64,000 nt of DNA from an uncultured Bacteroidaceae bacterium (lineage in GTDB: Bacteria > Bacteroidota > Bacteroidia > Bacteroidales > Bacteroidaceae): the NCBI GenBank assembly GCA_905234555.1, contig CAJOHO010000005.1, positions 1 to 64,000 of the forward strand. Direction: 5' to 3'. How positions within the stretch are numbered: the first letter of the stretch is position 1; each line of letters starts with the position of its first letter. The position numbers and the translations under genes are program-made. The notes beneath the pieces were generated by a model that had not been told where the DNA came from, searched no databases, and was given only the letters and a program-made list of their open reading frames with translations. Shown here in pieces: positions 4,663-56,117 of the stretch.

Positions 4663-4794
4663 GAAATGCATAAAAACAGCAAAAAACAACGATTTTTGGT
4701 GTGTGCGCGCACACAACCCTTGATTTTAGTCAATAAAATAGGCTTTTTTTGAGAAAAGTAGGTAAGAAATGATGCGTAGTTCAAAAAGTCGTCG

Positions 4795-4802
4795 TAACTT
4801 TG
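4795..4802 (+). promoter_or_regulatory. -7 element of a promoter for the sORF/structured RNA unit
   Basis: TAACTTTG at 4795-4802; -33 box weak. Confidence 0.5.
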
Positions 4803-4913
4803 CAGCGTCAAAAGGAAAAAAGGGTGACAGAGGTTACCCACCGTCAACCAAAAATGACGGTATCATAAGATTAGTTTTTTAGGTTTTAATAAATTGGTAA
4901 AAAGATTGAGATT

Positions 4914-4991
4914 ATGGAAACTATGACAGTGTTGGTAGCTGCCGTTATGGTAATTGCAGCAATCGTCAGCAATATTTCCATTATGAAATGA
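4914..4991 (+). CDS. 25-aa hydrophobic small protein METMTVLVAAVMVIAAIVSNISIMK
   Basis: ATG...TGA sORF between a promoter element and a structured RNA/terminator, with a continuous hydrophobic stretch. Below the ORF-track cut-off. Confidence 0.45.
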   Translation: METMTVLVAAVMVIAAIVSNISIMK

Positions 4992-4993
4992 GC

Positions 4994-5120
4994 TGACCGT
5001 TCGGCACCAATGACCTCCGCCAACGAGGTGTCAAGCCGAACCAAAGAATCGCAACCAGTGCAGGGTTCTAAACCCTGCCATCCAGAGTGGAAATTAAACC
5101 ATTTGAACTGGAAGCGGTCA
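4994..5120 (+). ncRNA. Candidate structured RNA: four-helix junction
   Basis: P1 TGACCG 4994-4999/CGGTCA 5115-5120; P2 TTCGGC 5000-5005/GCCGAA 5035-5040 with inner CCTC/GAGG; P3 GCAGGGTT 5060-5067/AACCCTGC 5071-5078; P4 TCCAG 5081-5085/CTGGA 5108-5112 with inner GTGG/CCAT. Confidence 0.55.
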
Positions 5121-5190
5121 TAATTGAGAGAATTAGTTAGTTAATATTAGTTAGGTTGATAAAATTAGGTGTTATTTAGTTAGAACGTTA

Positions 5191-5230
5191 GGTGGATGCC
5201 ATCCGTGAAGGACAGCATCCACCGTTTTTT
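5191..5230 (+). terminator. Intrinsic terminator
   Basis: GGTGGATGC 5191-5199 / GCATCCACC 5215-5223, then G and a T-tract. Confidence 0.85.
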
Positions 5231-5382
5231 TGTTACTAACTATGCTTGATGCATGAAAAACGGGCCGTTTAATCATTTTTGACGTAGAATTGATGGCGGA
5301 ATAAAATTAAATGATTATATTTGCAGCCTAAATCCAATGCATAATTGAAATTCTTAATTGATAATCTAAAAACCTCAGACTT

Positions 5383-5745
5383 ATGAAAAGACTACTGATT
5401 TTGTTGGCTGTGCTGACGATGGGGCTTCAAGGAGCTTCTGCACAGAGTGACTACTACATGAGGCAGGCGCAGAGTTATCAGCGTGATGCCGAGTACTATA
5501 TGAAACAGGCGCAGGGCTACGACCGTGATGTTGAGTATTATCAGCGTCAGGCACAGGGCTATATGCGTGATGCTGAATACTATACGCGTCAGAACAACAC
5601 AGATAAGGCGAGAACTTATCAGCGCTGGGCGAGTGAGGCGATGGACAAAGCTAACTTGCGGATGCGCTGGGCGAACGAAGCACGTGAGAAGGCTCAGCTG
5701 CGGATGAAGTGGGCACAAGACGCGATGGAGAAAGCAAGGAGGTAA
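5383..5745 (+). CDS. Secreted coiled-coil-like protein made of 14-aa tandem repeats
   Basis: Signal peptide MKRLLILLAVLTMGLQGASAQ, then YYMRQAQSYQRDAE / YYMKQAQGYDRDVE / YYQRQAQGYMRDAE and RWASEAMDKANLRM / RWANEAREKAQLRM / KWAQDAMEKARR. Confidence 0.8.
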   Translation: MKRLLILLAVLTMGLQGASAQSDYYMRQAQSYQRDAEYYMKQAQGYDRDVEYYQRQAQGYMRDAEYYTRQNNTDKARTYQRWASEAMDKANLRMRWANEAREKAQLRMKWAQDAMEKARR

Positions 5746-5825
5746 AAAGCCTCACCCCCGACCCCTCTCCGAAAGAGAGGAGAGAAACAAACTCGCAGAA
5801 AAGTTAAAACTAAAGAGAAATGATT

Positions 5826-7139
5826 ATGGATGAGCAATATGGGCTGAATGGGCAGCTTGATGGACCTATTGGGCTGAATGTGGCTGAGGCGGACGATAAT
5901 GCCTGGGCGATGTCGCAGTTCATGGGGCTGAACGGGCAGATGGAGGCTTTCCGTCTGTATCTGGCCCAGTATCCAGACGGAAGGCATGTAGAGGAATGTC
6001 GGGCCTTGCTGGATGATCCAGCTTGGTTCTTGGCTCGTAAGACCAATTCTGTCGCTGCTTTCAGCGAATATATGACAAATTTCCCTGGTCGGCACGATCA
6101 AGAGTGTCAGGAGTATATTGATCTGCTGAAGGCGGAGGAAGAGCGGCGTAGGGAGGAAACCAAGAAGCAGCGTGAGGTGGTTATTCGCCAACTTCTGACC
6201 CAACGAGACTCTTATTCCAGCATCGAACTTCGTAACTTCTTAGAGAACGCTGTGCTGTCGGAGGATGATCTGAAATCCTGCGGCTATACGGACGATATGA
6301 TTGCTTCTATCCGTCTTTATCAGCAACCCACTCGTCTGCCAGAGAACCTGCCCGACGAGAACCTGCCGAGTGGTGCTACGGAGTTTTATTTCTGGGGAAC
6401 GCCAGGTAGCGGCAAGACCTGTACGCTGGGTGCTGTGCTCAGTACGGCAAGCCGAATGGGTATGATGGGTAACATCCTGGAGGGTGGAGGCCAGCATTAT
6501 TTCAATATGCTCAAGGGCATCTTCAAGAAAAACAGTCCCTGCATCCTGCCAGAAGGCACTTCACACTCGAATATCGCCAGCGCCAAGATTGAATTCCGCG
6601 ACGAACAGAACCACATCCATCAGGCGACGTTGGTGGATCTGGCAGGAGAGGTGTTCCGCAGTATGCTGGACAAGAAACATGGTGTGATGACGGGTAGTCC
6701 GGAAGCGGCTCGCAGTCTGGATTTCACCCTAAAATATCTGAAAAACACCCGTAACCACAAGGTGCATTTCTTCCTGATTCCCTACGGAGAGGAAGAACTG
6801 GACTGGGACGGTATGTATATAGACTCCTACCTGTCGGAAGGTGCTACCTTCTTGGAACAACAAGGGGTGTTTAACAGCAGCACGGACGGCGTGTATATCC
6901 TGCTCACGAAGTGCGACCGAATGCCTCAGCATACCACTCGTGGTGAGGAGGCTCGTCGCTATATCCAGGAGAACTATCTTTCATTCTTGCGAAACCTGGA
7001 ATCTTACTGTAAGAAGCACAAAATCAAAGGATTCAGCGTCATCTCTTTCTCTATCGGCGACGTGTTTGCCAAGCAGAACTGCTGTTTCGACGAAACTGAT
7101 TCGTTGAAGGTGCTCAAGAAGATACTGGAAAAGACATAG
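5826..7139 (+). CDS. Helical-repeat protein with C-terminal P-loop GTPase domain
   Basis: G1 GTPGSGKT, G3 VDLAGE, G4 LLTKCD; N-terminal AFRLYLAQYPDGRHVEECRALLDD / AFSEYMTNFPGRHDQECQEYID repeats. Confidence 0.75.
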   Translation: MDEQYGLNGQLDGPIGLNVAEADDNAWAMSQFMGLNGQMEAFRLYLAQYPDGRHVEECRALLDDPAWFLARKTNSVAAFSEYMTNFPGRHDQECQEYIDLLKAEEERRREETKKQREVVIRQLLTQRDSYSSIELRNFLENAVLSEDDLKSCGYTDDMIASIRLYQQPTRLPENLPDENLPSGATEFYFWGTPGSGKTCTLGAVLSTASRMGMMGNILEGGGQHYFNMLKGIFKKNSPCILPEGTSHSNIASAKIEFRDEQNHIHQATLVDLAGEVFRSMLDKKHGVMTGSPEAARSLDFTLKYLKNTRNHKVHFFLIPYGEEELDWDGMYIDSYLSEGATFLEQQGVFNSSTDGVYILLTKCDRMPQHTTRGEEARRYIQENYLSFLRNLESYCKKHKIKGFSVISFSIGDVFAKQNCCFDETDSLKVLKKILEKT

Positions 7140-7173
7140 AATTTAATGCATAATTCATAATTCATAATGCATA

Positions 7174-8415
7174 ATGATGAATGGGTTTAATGGGCAATAC
7201 GGGCAGAATGGACAGCTGAATGGTTTTCATGCGATTCGGCTTCGGATCAGTTTGCAATACGGAGAGAAGGGATCGGTCAACTATTTGCTGACACCCGACT
7301 GTGGTGACCGCTGGGAACAGGTGGTGCCGCAAGATAGTCGCACGACGATGCGTCAGTTGTTCGAATCTCCTGTCTCAGCCTATCAGCTGGGCAACTACGC
7401 CCAACTGGGTGGCTTGGTCTATACCCACATCATTCCCAATCCTGTGGATTTCAGGGGTGGGTTCATACAGACTTCGCTCTATGTGGATCGTCGTTACCAA
7501 CTGGCTGCGCCAACGATTCTTGAGGCGTTGGGTAAGACGGAACACCTGCTGTTGGCGCAACAGGAGCGGTTCCACGCATCCATCAAAGGTCAGGACTATG
7601 CCTATAAGCAACAGGTGCAGGCTGCAGCCGATGCTATGCTGCAGGAACTCACGAGACACCTGAAGCCGGCATTGGGTAAGGGTGTTGCGAAACAAGCACC
7701 TGTCTCTACGATGACTTATTACCGTGTGGTGACGAATCGTCAACAGCTGGAAGAAATCTTCAGTTATCCAGATCAAGGTATCTTTACGAAAACGCCTCTC
7801 CTGACGATTGTGGAATCAGCACCTTATCCTGCCTCTCCCCTTGGTCATTCCTTTGTTCCCTACGACCGAACGGGCAAGTGTGTGGAGGTGCGCGAACCTA
7901 TTGTCAAGCCTTCTGAGTTTGTTCCTGCCACCAACGGAAAGATGTACGGACTGAATAATGCTGTCAACTACCCCAACCAAACTGAAAAAAAATCTTTCTT
8001 CAAGAAAAACTGGCCATTGCTGGTTGCGTTCTGCTTTGGTGTGCTGTTCGCCTATCTGGTTTATTGTGTTGCCAGCGTGATGAACGATCACAATCCTTGG
8101 CCATTCCAAGGTGAAGAAGCCTCCCCCCTGCCCCCTCCGATAGAGGGGGAGAGCGATGATGAGTATGAGTGGGAGGATGATGAGTTCATGGAAGAAGATT
8201 CCCTCTATGAACAAGATTATGACCTTGACTATGAGTCAGATAAGATACCTCCTGCTATCGAGGGAGAACAACCACTTCCGATTGAGAAGGAGCGCACCTC
8301 TCTGATAGAGGAGAAGGAAAAAGCCTCGCGAGAGTCCTTCGATTATCGTAGGAATCAACACGAGGCTGTAAAAAAAGCCTCGCGACAAAATCGCGAGGCT
8401 AAGTATCAAGATTAG
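7174..8415 (+). CDS. GTPase-associated membrane protein (soluble N-domain, one TM, acidic tail)
   Basis: Same orientation, 34 bp after the GTPase gene; N-terminal NGQYGQNGQLNG echoes the GTPase N-terminus YGLNGQL; TM WPLLVAFCFGVLFAYLVYCVASVM; tail rich in D/E. Confidence 0.7.
   Translation: MMNGFNGQYGQNGQLNGFHAIRLRISLQYGEKGSVNYLLTPDCGDRWEQVVPQDSRTTMRQLFESPVSAYQLGNYAQLGGLVYTHIIPNPVDFRGGFIQTSLYVDRRYQLAAPTILEALGKTEHLLLAQQERFHASIKGQDYAYKQQVQAAADAMLQELTRHLKPALGKGVAKQAPVSTMTYYRVVTNRQQLEEIFSYPDQGIFTKTPLLTIVESAPYPASPLGHSFVPYDRTGKCVEVREPIVKPSEFVPATNGKMYGLNNAVNYPNQTEKKSFFKKNWPLLVAFCFGVLFAYLVYCVASVMNDHNPWPFQGEEASPLPPPIEGESDDEYEWEDDEFMEEDSLYEQDYDLDYESDKIPPAIEGEQPLPIEKERTSLIEEKEKASRESFDYRRNQHEAVKKASRQNREAKYQD
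8376..8400 (-). terminator. Intrinsic terminator of the Na/Pi cotransporter gene, inside the convergent ORF
   Basis: AGCCTCGCGA-caaaa-TCGCGAGGCT (10 bp); the minus-strand copy is followed by T6-7. Confidence 0.8.
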
Positions 8416-17536: not shown

Positions 17537-17669
17537 ACTTAATCCTGCCCCCTGGAACCCATAAAACTGACACAAAAATTTCTGTTATAAAACGCCCGTA
17601 AGTTCACAATGAAGCATAACTTGTGAAAGTACGGGCGCTTTGTAGTTAGTGCAAAAGAAAGATTGGTTG

Positions 17670-19046
17670 TTAGGAGGGAATGAGTTGGATTAGGATGCCG
17701 GCGAGGAAACTGGTGGCATTGCACAGGAGGCTGTAGATGCAGGCCTGGCTCCACTTGCGGACAAACCAGAAATACCACAGGGCTTCGACGATGAGCACCA
17801 ACACCTCACCCACGATGACAGCCTCTGTGCTGATTCCGTTGGTCAGCAGGTAGATATTCAGCGGCACGTTGGTCAGGATATTCACGAAGATGGCGCCTAC
17901 CAGCACCTTCTTCCGCTTCTCGCCCATCAGCATCAACATGCCCAGTTCTACTGCGATGGTGAGGAGTAGGGCCGACAACATGAAATGGTGGTTGGGAGTG
18001 AGGTGGAGGTTGGTGGCCAACAGGTAGCCTGGAATCAGGACTGCTGCCAACAAACCAAAAGCCAATCCTTCGCATCTGGGCAACAGGCGGTTCGCCAGAC
18101 AGAGCGTCATCGGCATCGTGCAGTTGATGGCAAAGATGCCTAAAAGCACAGGCAGGAGCTGGGGAGCGTTTCCTGTTCTCAGCATCATGCAGGCAGCTGT
18201 GATGCCCACACAGAGCACGAGTGCCTGACGGATGTTCCAGGCACGTGCCACCCATCCGCCGCCAGCCTTTCCAATCATTGCCGTTGCTGCCATGAGGAGC
18301 AGGACTTCAGATGGTTTCTCCAACCCAGCAGAGATTGCTTCGCCTACGAACGCACGCAGCATAACAAAGAGAAGGATGAGGAGAAGAAAGAAAAGAGTGA
18401 AGAGTGAAGAGTGAAGTGTGAAGAATGGAGAGGAAGGAAGGCTGAGGGAAGATTCAGCGGGGAAACCGCTGGAGGCTGTGGCTAAGGGCTGAGGGGTGAG
18501 GGATTGAGGCTGAGGAAAGCGGGAAAGATAGAGAATGCCTAAGAGGTTGATGAGCAACAACATACCCGCCAGCATCCACCAGGAGGCATAGAGCACGCCG
18601 AGAGTCAGACCCATAACGCCAGACGATACAAATACGCCCAGGAACCTCATATCGTTGCCAGCCACGAGAACGGTGGTTTTTCCGCCCCATACATGGAAAA
18701 GGGAGTTGCCCAGCCCCAGCAGGACAGCGATGGTGAGCATAGAGAGGAAGTTGAATCCCCACCACGCTGTGGCAGCCAACTGAAGGATAACGGCTGTGGT
18801 GAGCAGTCCAATGGCGATGAGCAGAGCCGGTTGTTTCTGGTTCAGCCGATCCACCCACCAACCCGTCAGGGGCTGTGACATAAACGCCAATATATTATAG
18901 GTAAGGAAGAGCGCCAGCAGATTGCTTGTTCCGCTTGCGTCAGCCATCTGATACAGACTGCACGCACAAAGTCCGTCCACCAAGAGGTGGAGAGCTGTGG
19001 CGATGCCTACCGAAAAATATTTGGTACAGCCTGTTTTTTTATTCAT
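17670..19046 (-). CDS. MFS transporter
   Basis: 12-TM-like hydrophobicity; MNKKTGCTKYFSVGIATALHLLVDGLC...MSQPLTGWWVDRLNQKQPALL. Confidence 0.8.
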   Translation of the reverse strand: MNKKTGCTKYFSVGIATALHLLVDGLCACSLYQMADASGTSNLLALFLTYNILAFMSQPLTGWWVDRLNQKQPALLIAIGLLTTAVILQLAATAWWGFNFLSMLTIAVLLGLGNSLFHVWGGKTTVLVAGNDMRFLGVFVSSGVMGLTLGVLYASWWMLAGMLLLINLLGILYLSRFPQPQSLTPQPLATASSGFPAESSLSLPSSPFFTLHSSLFTLFFLLLILLFVMLRAFVGEAISAGLEKPSEVLLLMAATAMIGKAGGGWVARAWNIRQALVLCVGITAACMMLRTGNAPQLLPVLLGIFAINCTMPMTLCLANRLLPRCEGLAFGLLAAVLIPGYLLATNLHLTPNHHFMLSALLLTIAVELGMLMLMGEKRKKVLVGAIFVNILTNVPLNIYLLTNGISTEAVIVGEVLVLIVEALWYFWFVRKWSQACIYSLLCNATSFLAGILIQLIPS

Positions 19047-19112: not shown

Positions 19113-19240
19113 TTGCAAAAGAGGTGAAAAGCCACTAACTTTGCAACGTGTTTTTCATAGTATTAGATTTAAGGTTAACAAGATTGGGGTAAGGCGTTAC
19201 CCCTTTTTTTATGTCCGTAGGTCTCGTGGAGACCTTTTTT
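19113..19240 (+). ncRNA. Candidate short non-coding transcription unit with two tandem terminators
   Basis: TTGC 19113-19116, TAACTTTG 19136-19143; GGGGTAA-ggcg-TTACCCC-T7 (19186-19210) and GGTCTC-gtg-GAGACC-T7 (19220-19241). Confidence 0.5.
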
Positions 19241-34111: not shown

Positions 34112-35182
34112 TTGCCTAAACACCTCACTGCCAACATCAACTCACGCTACCTCGAAGCTGCTAACCGCATGCGTCCTGGTGGACGACAGAAGAAGCGCAT
34201 CATTGCCTACGTGGAGAGCTATGACGACATCTTCTTCTGGCGGAGTGTGCTGAGTGAGTTTGAGAACGAAGAACGGGAGTTCCAGGTGATGCTTCCTTCG
34301 CGTACCTCGCTGGTGAGAGGCAAGAAACAGGCGATGACCAACAAACTGGGCGAAGGACTCGGCACCAGTATGATTGCCTGTGTGGATGCCGACTACGACT
34401 ATCTGATGCAGGGACACACGCCTTACTCCGAGTCCATGCTCCGCAATCCTTATATCTTCCACACCTACGCCTATGCCATTGAGAACTACCAATGCTACGC
34501 CCCTTCGCTCCATAATGTCTGTGTGATGTCCACGCTCAACGACCGGCCTATCTTCGATTTTGAGGACTACCTGTTGCAATACAGCCGCATCGTCTATGAC
34601 CTCTTCGTCTGGAGCGTGTGGCTCTATCGCCGACAGATGTATCGCGATATGCCGCTGAACACATTATGCAATTTCATCAGCGTAGATAAGCTGAACCTCT
34701 TCAACCCCCATACTGCGCTTGAGGAACTGCGCAGGAAGGTGAACCGCAAACTGGCGTGGATGCAGCGTCAATACCCGCAGGCAAGGGGAACGTTCAAGCC
34801 TCTGAAGGCAGAACTCGAAACGCTGGGCCTGACACCCGACACCACTTATCTCTTTGTGCAGGGACACCACATCATGGAGAACGTGGCGATGGCTGCCCTC
34901 GATCCTGCCTGCACCATCCTGCGGCGTGAACGGGAAAAGGAAATCAAACGGCTCGCCGGCAACAACAAGCAACACATGGACAACGAACTGGCGAGCTACC
35001 AGCACAGCCAGATGCCCATCCAGCAAATGCTACGCCGAAACACCTCCTTCCATTCCTGTCCCCTCTACCAACGCCTTCGCGCCGACATCATGCATTTCCT
35101 CGGCATTGAGGAAAAGATGCCCGATACAGAAGGTGTGTCGAGCGGTTCCCCCACAGGAACTCAACCCGAACAACATTTCTAA
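34112..35182 (+). CDS. DUF4435 (TOPRIM-like) domain protein
   Basis: IIAYVESYDDIFFWRSVLSEFE, SMIACVDADYDYLM, YIFHTYAYAIENYQCYAPSL; TTG start 23 bp after the ATPase. Confidence 0.82.
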   Translation: MPKHLTANINSRYLEAANRMRPGGRQKKRIIAYVESYDDIFFWRSVLSEFENEEREFQVMLPSRTSLVRGKKQAMTNKLGEGLGTSMIACVDADYDYLMQGHTPYSESMLRNPYIFHTYAYAIENYQCYAPSLHNVCVMSTLNDRPIFDFEDYLLQYSRIVYDLFVWSVWLYRRQMYRDMPLNTLCNFISVDKLNLFNPHTALEELRRKVNRKLAWMQRQYPQARGTFKPLKAELETLGLTPDTTYLFVQGHHIMENVAMAALDPACTILRREREKEIKRLAGNNKQHMDNELASYQHSQMPIQQMLRRNTSFHSCPLYQRLRADIMHFLGIEEKMPDTEGVSSGSPTGTQPEQHF

Positions 35183-35235
35183 ATTTTTAAATCCTAAAAA
35201 ACATTATTTATAAACCCCTAAAAAAACAAATGACA

Positions 35236-36222
35236 ATGAAAAAAATGTATTTCTGGATGCTGGCTCTCCTGATGGTGGGCGGCATGACTTGTGTGTCTTG
35301 CGACGACGATGACGAGAAGGATAACGGTGGTGGCGACAGCAAAAACGAACTGGTGGGCGTATGGGCCTCAACGGATAACCCTATACCCATCGATTATGAT
35401 GATGACGAAGGAGGCCCCAAGGCCAAGCAGACCCGCTTAATTTTGCCTTCCGAAGAAGCTACCCATGAGGACGGTTACATGATTTTCCGTGAAGACGGAA
35501 CGTTCTACGGCTTGGATGTTTACTTCAAACAGAATGGCTCAAAGATGGTGTATCTGACCTTCGACATGAACAAGGGCACCTACAAAGTGAAGAACGGAAA
35601 AATCACCGTTACATACGATGACGACTCCGACCCAGAAGATGGTCCGCTGAATGTGAAGTACTCCATCAAGAGCGGAAAGCTCACAATTTACGATGACAAA
35701 GGCAACGGCTACACCTTTAAACGCGTAGAGGAATCGGAAGTCAAGGAGTATCTCGATCAGTACGAAAAGGACGAAGAAGCAAAGAAGCTCCTGGCAACTG
35801 GTTATTGGGCATATGCTGAAAACCCCTATAAAGATTCTGACGGAGATTATTGGCGCTATTTTTATGAGTACAACCTAAATGGCTCATGCCAATACTACGA
35901 GTTCTACTTTGGCAATTCGACCGCTTCCTGTAAGAGTGGAGTTACCTATGGGGGCCATTGGGACATCATAGGCGGTTACTACTATGAATCCTACGCATGT
36001 TATGACGGAGATGGAGACTTTTTCGGCTATGACACAAATGTCTTTACCTATTCTTTTTATACGAATGAACAGATAGGAAGAGTCTATCTCACCCTTTCTA
36101 ATGGCGAAAACACTTGGAGATATTTCCAGGTTTCACAGTCTTACATCGATGATTACCTGCCCTATCTGAATAACGACAACATAAGAGCGCCTATGCGTTC
36201 GTTCGCTCCTCATTGCAAATAA
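35236..36222 (+). CDS. Acidic lipoprotein, possibly surface exported
   Basis: Signal peptide ending VSC then DDDDEKDNGGG (acidic stretch after lipobox Cys). Confidence 0.7.
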   Translation: MKKMYFWMLALLMVGGMTCVSCDDDDEKDNGGGDSKNELVGVWASTDNPIPIDYDDDEGGPKAKQTRLILPSEEATHEDGYMIFREDGTFYGLDVYFKQNGSKMVYLTFDMNKGTYKVKNGKITVTYDDDSDPEDGPLNVKYSIKSGKLTIYDDKGNGYTFKRVEESEVKEYLDQYEKDEEAKKLLATGYWAYAENPYKDSDGDYWRYFYEYNLNGSCQYYEFYFGNSTASCKSGVTYGGHWDIIGGYYYESYACYDGDGDFFGYDTNVFTYSFYTNEQIGRVYLTLSNGENTWRYFQVSQSYIDDYLPYLNNDNIRAPMRSFAPHCK

Positions 36223-54326: not shown

Positions 54327-56117
54327 TCACTCTAACCAGCCCTCACGATCCAAGTTGCGATAACCGATGGCCTCAGCGATATGATGGGAGAGAATATTGG
54401 CTGAACCATCAAGGTCGGCAATGGTACGGGCAACTTTCAAGATACGGTCATAAGCACGAGCAGAGAGGTTCAGCCTCCGCATAGCCATACGCAGGTGGTT
54501 CATCGACTCATCATCCAGAGATGCATACTTCTGCAGAAGAGAAGTCGTCATCTGCGCATTGCAATAAACACCCTTCACACCACGGAACCGCTCCTCCTGT
54601 ATCTTGCGGGCACGAATCACACGCTCGCGGATACTCGCACTCGATTCACCCTTCGGAGCCTTGGCAATATCCTCGAAAGGAACACTTTCCACCTCAATCT
54701 GAATATCAATGCGATCGAGCAACGGTCCGGAAATCTTGTTCATATAACGCTGAATCTGCGCAGGCGTACAAGCACATCGATGCGTAGGATGATGATGATA
54801 GCCACAAGGACACGGGTTCATCGAGGCAACCAGCATGAACGAACAAGGAAGCGTGAATGTGTAACGGGCACGGCTGATCGTGATGATACGGTCTTCCAGC
54901 GGCTGACGCAGAGTTTCGAGAACCGAACGCGAAAATTCAGGCAGTTCATCAAGGAAAAGCACACCATTATGAGCCAGACAGACCTCACCAGGCGTAAAAG
55001 TATTGCCACCTCCCACCAACGCCACGTCACTCACCGTGTGGTGGGGCGAACGGAAAGGACGTTGACTGATAAGCGTAGAATGGCGGTTGAGCTTGCCTGC
55101 CACGCTGTGAATCTGCGTTGTTTCCAAACTTTCTTCCAAAGAAAGAGGAGGGAGGATGCTGGGCAGGCGCTTCGCCATCATCGACTTTCCACAACCAGGA
55201 CTACCCACCAGCAGAATATTGTGACCACCGGCAGAAGCCACCTCGAAAGCACGCTTCACGTTCTCCTGACCCTTCACCTCATCAAAATCATAGTCAAACA
55301 CACACTGCTGAGCATAGAACTCCTCGCGCGTGTGAACCACAGTAGGCTTATAGAACGCCCGTGCACAGAGAATGTTCACCACCTCCGAGATATGACTCAC
55401 CCCATAAACCTGCAAGGTATCCACCACGGCAGCCTCACGGGCATTCTCTTCCGGCACGAACAACGCTTCAAACTTCTCAGCACGCGCCTTGATAGCAATA
55501 GGCAACACCCCCTTGACAGGCTGGATGCTACCATCCAGTCCCAATTCCCCCACAAACATAAATCGATCCAAATCCTGACTCACCCCCTGACTCTGAACCA
55601 TATTCGCACCATTGGTCAGATTTGCGCCGTTGGTCAGATTTGCGCCGTTGGTCAAGTTCGAGAGTTGAATTTGGTTTTGATTAGGGTTCGAGCTTAGAGG
55701 TTGATTGGAGTTCAAACTAAGGGGTTGGGAGGGGTTAGAACTTAGAGGTTGGGAGGGGTTAGAGGCGCTGTTGGGTTTGGGATTGGGATTAGGGGGGCAG
55801 TTAGGATTGGAGTTGGAGGGGCGGAGCATACCGAAGGCGGCCATCATACCGATGGCGATGGGGAGGTCGAAGCCGGACCCTTCCTTTCGGAGGTCGGCAG
55901 GAGCGAGGTTTACCACCGTGCGGTGTACGGGAGGCTGGAAATTGTTCACCTTTAGGGCCGACAGAATGCGCTCCTGACTCTCCTTGACCGCATTGTCGGG
56001 AAGACCCACAATCACCACCGCCGGATGATCATTACACGGCTCCGTATTGATCTCAATCGTAATCGGAATCGCCTGCAACCCCTGCAGCGTCGCACTATAT
56101 ACTTTCGCAAGATTCAT
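54327..56117 (-). CDS. comM: YifB/ComM family Mg-chelatase-like AAA ATPase with low-complexity insertion
   Basis: FVGELGLDGSIQPVKGVLPIA, GSPGCGKSMMAKRLPSILPP, FLDELPEFSRSVLETLRQPLED, NPCPCGY. Confidence 0.93.
   Translation of the reverse strand: MNLAKVYSATLQGLQAIPITIEINTEPCNDHPAVVIVGLPDNAVKESQERILSALKVNNFQPPVHRTVVNLAPADLRKEGSGFDLPIAIGMMAAFGMLRPSNSNPNCPPNPNPKPNSASNPSQPLSSNPSQPLSLNSNQPLSSNPNQNQIQLSNLTNGANLTNGANLTNGANMVQSQGVSQDLDRFMFVGELGLDGSIQPVKGVLPIAIKARAEKFEALFVPEENAREAAVVDTLQVYGVSHISEVVNILCARAFYKPTVVHTREEFYAQQCVFDYDFDEVKGQENVKRAFEVASAGGHNILLVGSPGCGKSMMAKRLPSILPPLSLEESLETTQIHSVAGKLNRHSTLISQRPFRSPHHTVSDVALVGGGNTFTPGEVCLAHNGVLFLDELPEFSRSVLETLRQPLEDRIITISRARYTFTLPCSFMLVASMNPCPCGYHHHPTHRCACTPAQIQRYMNKISGPLLDRIDIQIEVESVPFEDIAKAPKGESSASIRERVIRARKIQEERFRGVKGVYCNAQMTTSLLQKYASLDDESMNHLRMAMRRLNLSARAYDRILKVARTIADLDGSANILSHHIAEAIGYRNLDREGWLE

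Follow-up and report, generated by a model that had tools for sequence, protein, structure and literature searches.

A short transcript under a double CRP/FNR-like operator in Bacteroidaceae: a candidate membrane-peptide mRNA with a putatively regulatory C-less tail

What role does a compactly folded RNA element play when it directly follows a tiny open reading frame in an uncultured Bacteroidaceae bacterium? The element, at positions 4994-5120 of the 64,000-nt stretch of DNA analyzed here (the window), had been proposed to form a four-helix junction closed by a helix termed P1, and to act as a riboswitch-like element or as a domain of a dual-function sRNA, possibly regulating a GTPase locus downstream. 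We examined the element within its predicted transcript, which would run from about 4808 to 5231. The start at about 4808 was derived from the promoter box TAACTTTG at 4795, which fits TAnnTTTG, the −7 consensus of Bacteroidetes (PMC7366714). Relative to this putative start, an upstream operator has its first palindrome near −100 and its second near −81. The features of the locus are as follows.

4700-4733 (+): composite operator of two palindromes, TGTGTGCGCGCACACA (4700-4715) and, after 4 nt, TTGATTTTAGTCAA (4720-4733)
4795-4802 (+): promoter −7 box TAACTTTG (TAnnTTTG), 61 nt after the operator end
4808-4913 (+): predicted 5′ UTR with two small hairpins and the leader motifs TTTTTAGG and GGTAAAAAGATTG
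4914-4991 (+): sORF METMTVLVAAVMVIAAIVSNISIMK, 25 aa, predicted single membrane-spanning peptide
4965-4997 (+): stop-codon hairpin (4965-4970/4992-4997 and 4973-4978/4985-4990), enclosing the ORF end
4994-5120 (+): C-rich structured spacer with arms 4999-5041 and 5051-5115
5121-5189 (+): C-less tail, 1.4% C, seven UUAG, with the genus-specific ATTAGGTGTTATTTAGTTAG at 5164-5183
5191-5231 (+): intrinsic terminator, stem of −22.2 kcal/mol, then T7

Fold and conservation of the structured element

The 127 nt from 4994 to 5120 have a minimum free energy of −45.4 kcal/mol, whereas shuffled sequences averaged −29.2 (z = −4.86), and none of 200 dinucleotide shuffles matched this stability. The structure in this segment thus exceeds chance. 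The complementary segments named in the original prediction are all in place, and the stable fold that it implied was recovered, but two of its helices do not form as drawn. TCCAG (5081-5085)/CTGGA (5108-5112) competes with, and is displaced by, CCAGT (5055-5059)/ACTGG (5107-5111), which has a pairing probability of about 0.9 and encloses the GCAGGGTT/AACCCTGC hairpin together with the GTGG/CCAT hairpin. P1 (4994-4998/5116-5120) reached a probability of about 0.6 when 4994-5120 was folded in isolation, versus 0.00 when the predicted full transcript (4805-5232) was folded, because GCTGAC (4992-4997) then pairs with GTCAGC (4965-4970) at a probability of about 1. Blocking the ORF, which mimics ribosome occupancy, raised P1 to about 0.25 only. 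The robust remainder consists of two adjacent arms, 4999-5041 and 5051-5115, which hold in all contexts but one: a ribosome halted at the stop codon opens the outer part of arm 4999-5041. These models do not favor the four-helix junction that had been drawn, and P1 is only an alternative.

No sequence homologue of 4994-5120 was found among 100 other genomes of the family. A search of Rfam 15 at gathering and relaxed thresholds returned nothing at or above gathering and only chance-level matches under the relaxed setting, in agreement with the earlier impression that the element looks novel. Three congeners (G006, G008, and G010) carry unrelated sequences between ORF and tail, each with an element closed by a GC-rich stem; these P1-closed equivalents gave z-scores of −2.2, −4.5, and −1.8, respectively. 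Three others (G003, G005, and G009) have no spacer element, the tail starting about 30 nt on, and the spacer is therefore judged dispensable. Since the MAFFT alignment of the spacer comprised three sequences too divergent for a formal covariation count, P1 in the relatives rests on individual folds, and since the genus assemblies examined are 56-89% complete, absences among congeners carry little weight. By sequence comparison, the spacer is recurrent, yet neither conserved in sequence nor required, and 4994-5120 is best described as a fast-evolving, lineage-variable 3′-UTR module or spacer, not an aptamer. With 28% C and no UUAG, it is compositionally the reverse of the tail.

These results bear directly on the proposal that the four-helix element acts as a novel riboswitch, or otherwise controls the GTPase-like locus downstream in cis, which we consider highly improbable. 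Its compact, stable fold would suit such a role, but the strong terminator predicted 3′ of the element is indeed present (5191-5231; stem of −22.2 kcal/mol over 5191-5234, then T7) and separates it from the next gene, for which a separate TATATTTG promoter box lies at 5316. Neither neighboring gene was found beside the relatives. Nor is an aptamer core conserved, as the segment has no homologue and the congener sequences are unrelated; P1, moreover, is not formed in the full-transcript fold. The region 5383-8415 (+) contains three ORFs: the first encodes a 120-aa repeat-rich protein with a signal-like N-terminus; the product of the second, 439 aa long, is a P-loop protein weakly similar to DO-GTPases (E = 0.05); and the third product, of 413 aa, has a single predicted membrane segment.

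The 25-aa ORF and its stop-codon hairpin

The sORF upstream of the element had been assumed to be real, and its coding signature bears this out. Homologues of the 25-aa ORF occur in five genera; over 189 pairs (43-44 distinct coding sequences), pN/pS was 0.25 and third codon positions changed most, indicating that the ORF is selected as a protein. The peptide would be made and inserted in the membrane. One kind of operator-driven transcript encodes such tiny hydrophobic peptides, often several in tandem (e.g., METMTIIAVAIVAVAAIASNVSIFK), and none of these peptides matched a known protein family above threshold. A second peptide in tandem (e.g., MEQLTKIQMYWTAAFIATFVGLFLYAFAMVD) precedes the 25-aa ORF at loci such as L063 and L065 and weakly resembles the FixQ/CcmD small subunits, below threshold (E = 0.1-0.45).

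The final ORF codons base-pair with nucleotides immediately beyond the stop codon, at a probability of about 1 in the full-transcript fold. For 43 homologues folded with their own 3′ UTRs, the energies summed to −452 kcal/mol versus −365 ± 12.6 kcal/mol with swapped 3′ UTRs. The observed energy was reached by none of 5000 random permutations overall and likewise by none of 5000 when swapping was confined to the g15-like group or to the rest. As related sequences share both arms, this swap test is conservative. The tally of pairs bridging the stop codon was less decisive (44/5000 overall, 9/5000 in the g15-like group, and 1094/5000 in the rest). In individual sequences, changes at a synonymous codon position are compensated in the 3′ UTR; for example, the hairpin reads GUCAGC/GCUGAC here, versus GUGAG/CUCAC in G008 and GAGCC/GGCUC at L065. 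The covariation is drawn from the swap test and these individual sequences, as distinct from an R-scape result. Together they point to the stop-codon hairpin, not the spacer, as the conserved RNA structure, which would represent a new feature of tiny-ORF mRNAs.

A locus with a small hydrophobic peptide, repeated in tandem in several relatives, and a structured mRNA could also be a toxin–antitoxin pair in which the peptide acts as type I toxin. We regard this as improbable given that the operator control is dedicated, that noncoding relatives of the same RNA exist, and that no opposite-strand TAnnTTTG, the one box type considered, occurs within 4800-5300. A type I toxin with an antisense RNA was rejected on the last of these grounds. 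A search for phage or plasmid origin gave no match.

The double operator and the RNAs it drives

Both operator palindromes have a 5-4-5 spacing, which is typical of CRP/FNR-family sites, and TTGATNNNNATCAA is identical to the textbook FNR box. Of the 13 genus genomes, 11 carry exactly one copy of a strict form of the operator pattern, which in 10 of these 11 stands upstream of the 25-aa ORF/tail locus; in the eleventh (G012), it lies 153 nt from a contig end, leaving the promoter alone readable. A relaxed pattern matched 63 of 301 family genomes versus 1 of 301 for the reversed control, with the matches falling mostly in six genera (g1, g6, g15, g18, g21, and g53). A slightly stricter version was found in 0 of 146 other genomes from the order, nearly all of which belong to other families. 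Downstream, TAnnTTTG follows at 59-62 nt in 96 of the 99 distinct operators readable with their flank, and 94 of those 96 spacings are 60 or 61 nt. The operator is specific, and its distance to the promoter is fixed.

A candidate CRP/FNR-family protein would bind this operator. Two proteins with a Crp-type HTH are encoded in this genome, which favors a transcript with both peptide and RNA outputs; an FNR-type recognition helix is recognizable in neither, which counts against it. The double operator, with its fixed 60-61 nt spacing to TAnnTTTG, is found at 4700-4733 of the window and at about 95 loci in six genera, where it would control short RNAs and tiny-ORF transcripts. At L026 (G011:C188) and L098 (G212:C12), operator and transcript are common to genomes of different genera, which suggests transfer or assembly contamination.

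The tail (5121-5189) comprises 69 nt with a single C and seven UUAG, and its 20-nt core, ATTAGGTGTTATTTAGTTAG, is limited to one genus. Three genomes of the window's genus have a transcript of ~155 nt with operator, promoter, and tail but no ORF, and two of the three also have the ORF form. It is chiefly these ORF-less transcripts that argue for the tail as a functional module of its own. In other genera, a second kind of transcript under the operator is dominant, namely noncoding RNAs with 8.7% C, in which UUAG (196 observed, 96 expected), AGAUUG (41 and 2.6), and AGGU (185 and 67) are strongly overrepresented. None of the operator-driven RNAs, whether tiny-ORF or noncoding, matches Rfam. Two observations speak against a dual output: no near-complementary site for the 20-nt core exists elsewhere in the genome at up to three mismatches, and in the full-length MFE structure weak A-U and G-U pairs occupy part of the tail (mean unpaired 0.41).

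The distribution of tail and ORF also bears on whether the transcript is an mRNA for the tiny membrane peptide alone, with the spacer and C-poor tail as 3′-UTR stability or termination elements that do nothing in trans. It is the ORF that is conserved across genera, the tail core is confined to a single genus, and a stop-codon hairpin fits mRNA protection; yet some RNAs have this operator, promoter, and tail without any ORF, and in other genera the noncoding C-poor kind prevails. We consider this simpler account possible but rather unlikely. Titration of an RRM protein by the UUAG repeats was also considered and rejected, as RRM_1 was not found here and is missing in most operator-bearing genera sampled: none was found in this genome (G000, an 81% complete assembly) or in the sampled g1, g15, g18, g21, and g53 genomes, and one of two sampled g6 genomes has it.

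A proposed dual-output RNA and its nearest known systems

We see an even chance that the locus encodes a dual-function-type RNA of a new family, combining a membrane-peptide mRNA and a regulatory C-less tail with a spacer between them. In such an arrangement, the promoter under the double CRP/FNR-like operator would produce one short transcript, about 4808-5231, whose 5′ part would serve as the mRNA for the 25-aa membrane peptide. The unstructured, nearly C-free 3′ tail would then most likely be the regulatory RNA segment, with the spacer and stop-codon hairpin holding translation and tail apart; the tail would act in trans and the spacer would insulate. The sequence itself shows the operator with its fixed spacing, the coding signature, the covariation of the stop hairpin, the C-less tail, the terminator, and the tail-only relatives. 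The proposed dual output draws on this fixed architecture, the operator specificity, the coding signature, the tail-only RNAs, the noncoding C-poor RNAs under this operator in other genera, and the swap test, as well as on the unrelated P1-closed elements in G006, G008, and G010, and is weakened by the lack of a spacer in three congeners. Of the dual-function sRNA originally suggested, the tiny ORF and the short, predicted terminated transcript stand, but the structured element on which the suggestion centered is itself a spacer.

The nearest working model is VcdRP of Vibrio cholerae, which combines the 29-aa VcdP with a base-pairing RNA and is repressed by CRP (PMC8672173). As in VcdRP and in AzuCR/Spot 42 of Escherichia coli, all of which CRP represses, a short transcript unites a tiny ORF with a candidate RNA part under putative CRP-family control. 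Unlike those systems, the present one belongs to a different phylum with a different promoter type, has its two palindromes roughly 80 and 100 nt 5′ of the putative start, includes ORF-less relatives in the same genomes, and has a trans activity that is putative. Furthermore, VcdR requires four consecutive cytosines, whereas the tail here is nearly C-free and UUAG-rich.

Within Bacteroidales, the FopS family (RF04319), described together with RbpB (PMC11697453), comprises multicopy sRNAs with single-stranded seed regions. In B. thetaiotaomicron, FopS binds a protein of the RRM_1 kind. The RNAs described here are likewise multicopy, with predicted single-stranded regions, but they lack an Rfam match and are under different promoter control, and no RRM_1 protein was found in this genome or in the sampled g15, g18, g21, and g53 genomes. 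The window has a FopS match of its own at 19148-19213 (+; RF04319, 77.2 bits), although the assembly, which is 81% complete, yielded no RRM_1 protein. UTR-derived sRNAs and type I-like sORF pairs have also been reported in Bacteroides thetaiotaomicron (PMC7366714). These resemble our locus in their short sORF transcripts, TAnnTTTG promoters, and Bacteroidales origin; they differ in that no antisense partner promoter is present here and the double operator occurs in 0 of the 146 other genomes from the order.

A search of open-access literature gave no description of a double-operator family of small RNAs and tiny genes, and this family, spread over six genera of one family, is apparently undescribed. 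A broader formulation has, in our judgment, a little less than an even chance of being correct: an undescribed RNA family, confined to Prevotella-like genera and governed by a rigid double CRP/FNR-like operator, whose members are C-free, multi-motif regulatory RNAs, some of them encoding membrane peptides of 18-31 aa. We infer the label "Prevotella-like" from family membership and sequence style. If true, a single signal-responsive control site would drive both RNA and peptide outputs. The four-helix element is itself a minor spacer, and its follow-up exposed a compact, repeatedly conserved regulatory unit in which a double operator at a fixed distance from the promoter is followed by a tiny membrane ORF or a C-poor RNA and then by a terminator. 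The unit recurs in several genera of an important group of gut and rumen bacteria in which small-RNA biology is barely known, and exact promoters, ORFs, and RNA ends are now predicted for testing. Elsewhere in the window, further C-poor, multi-UUAG stretches at 55669-55826 (+), 17624-17709 (+), and 35152-35248 (−) are possibly additional RNAs or UTRs of similar style.
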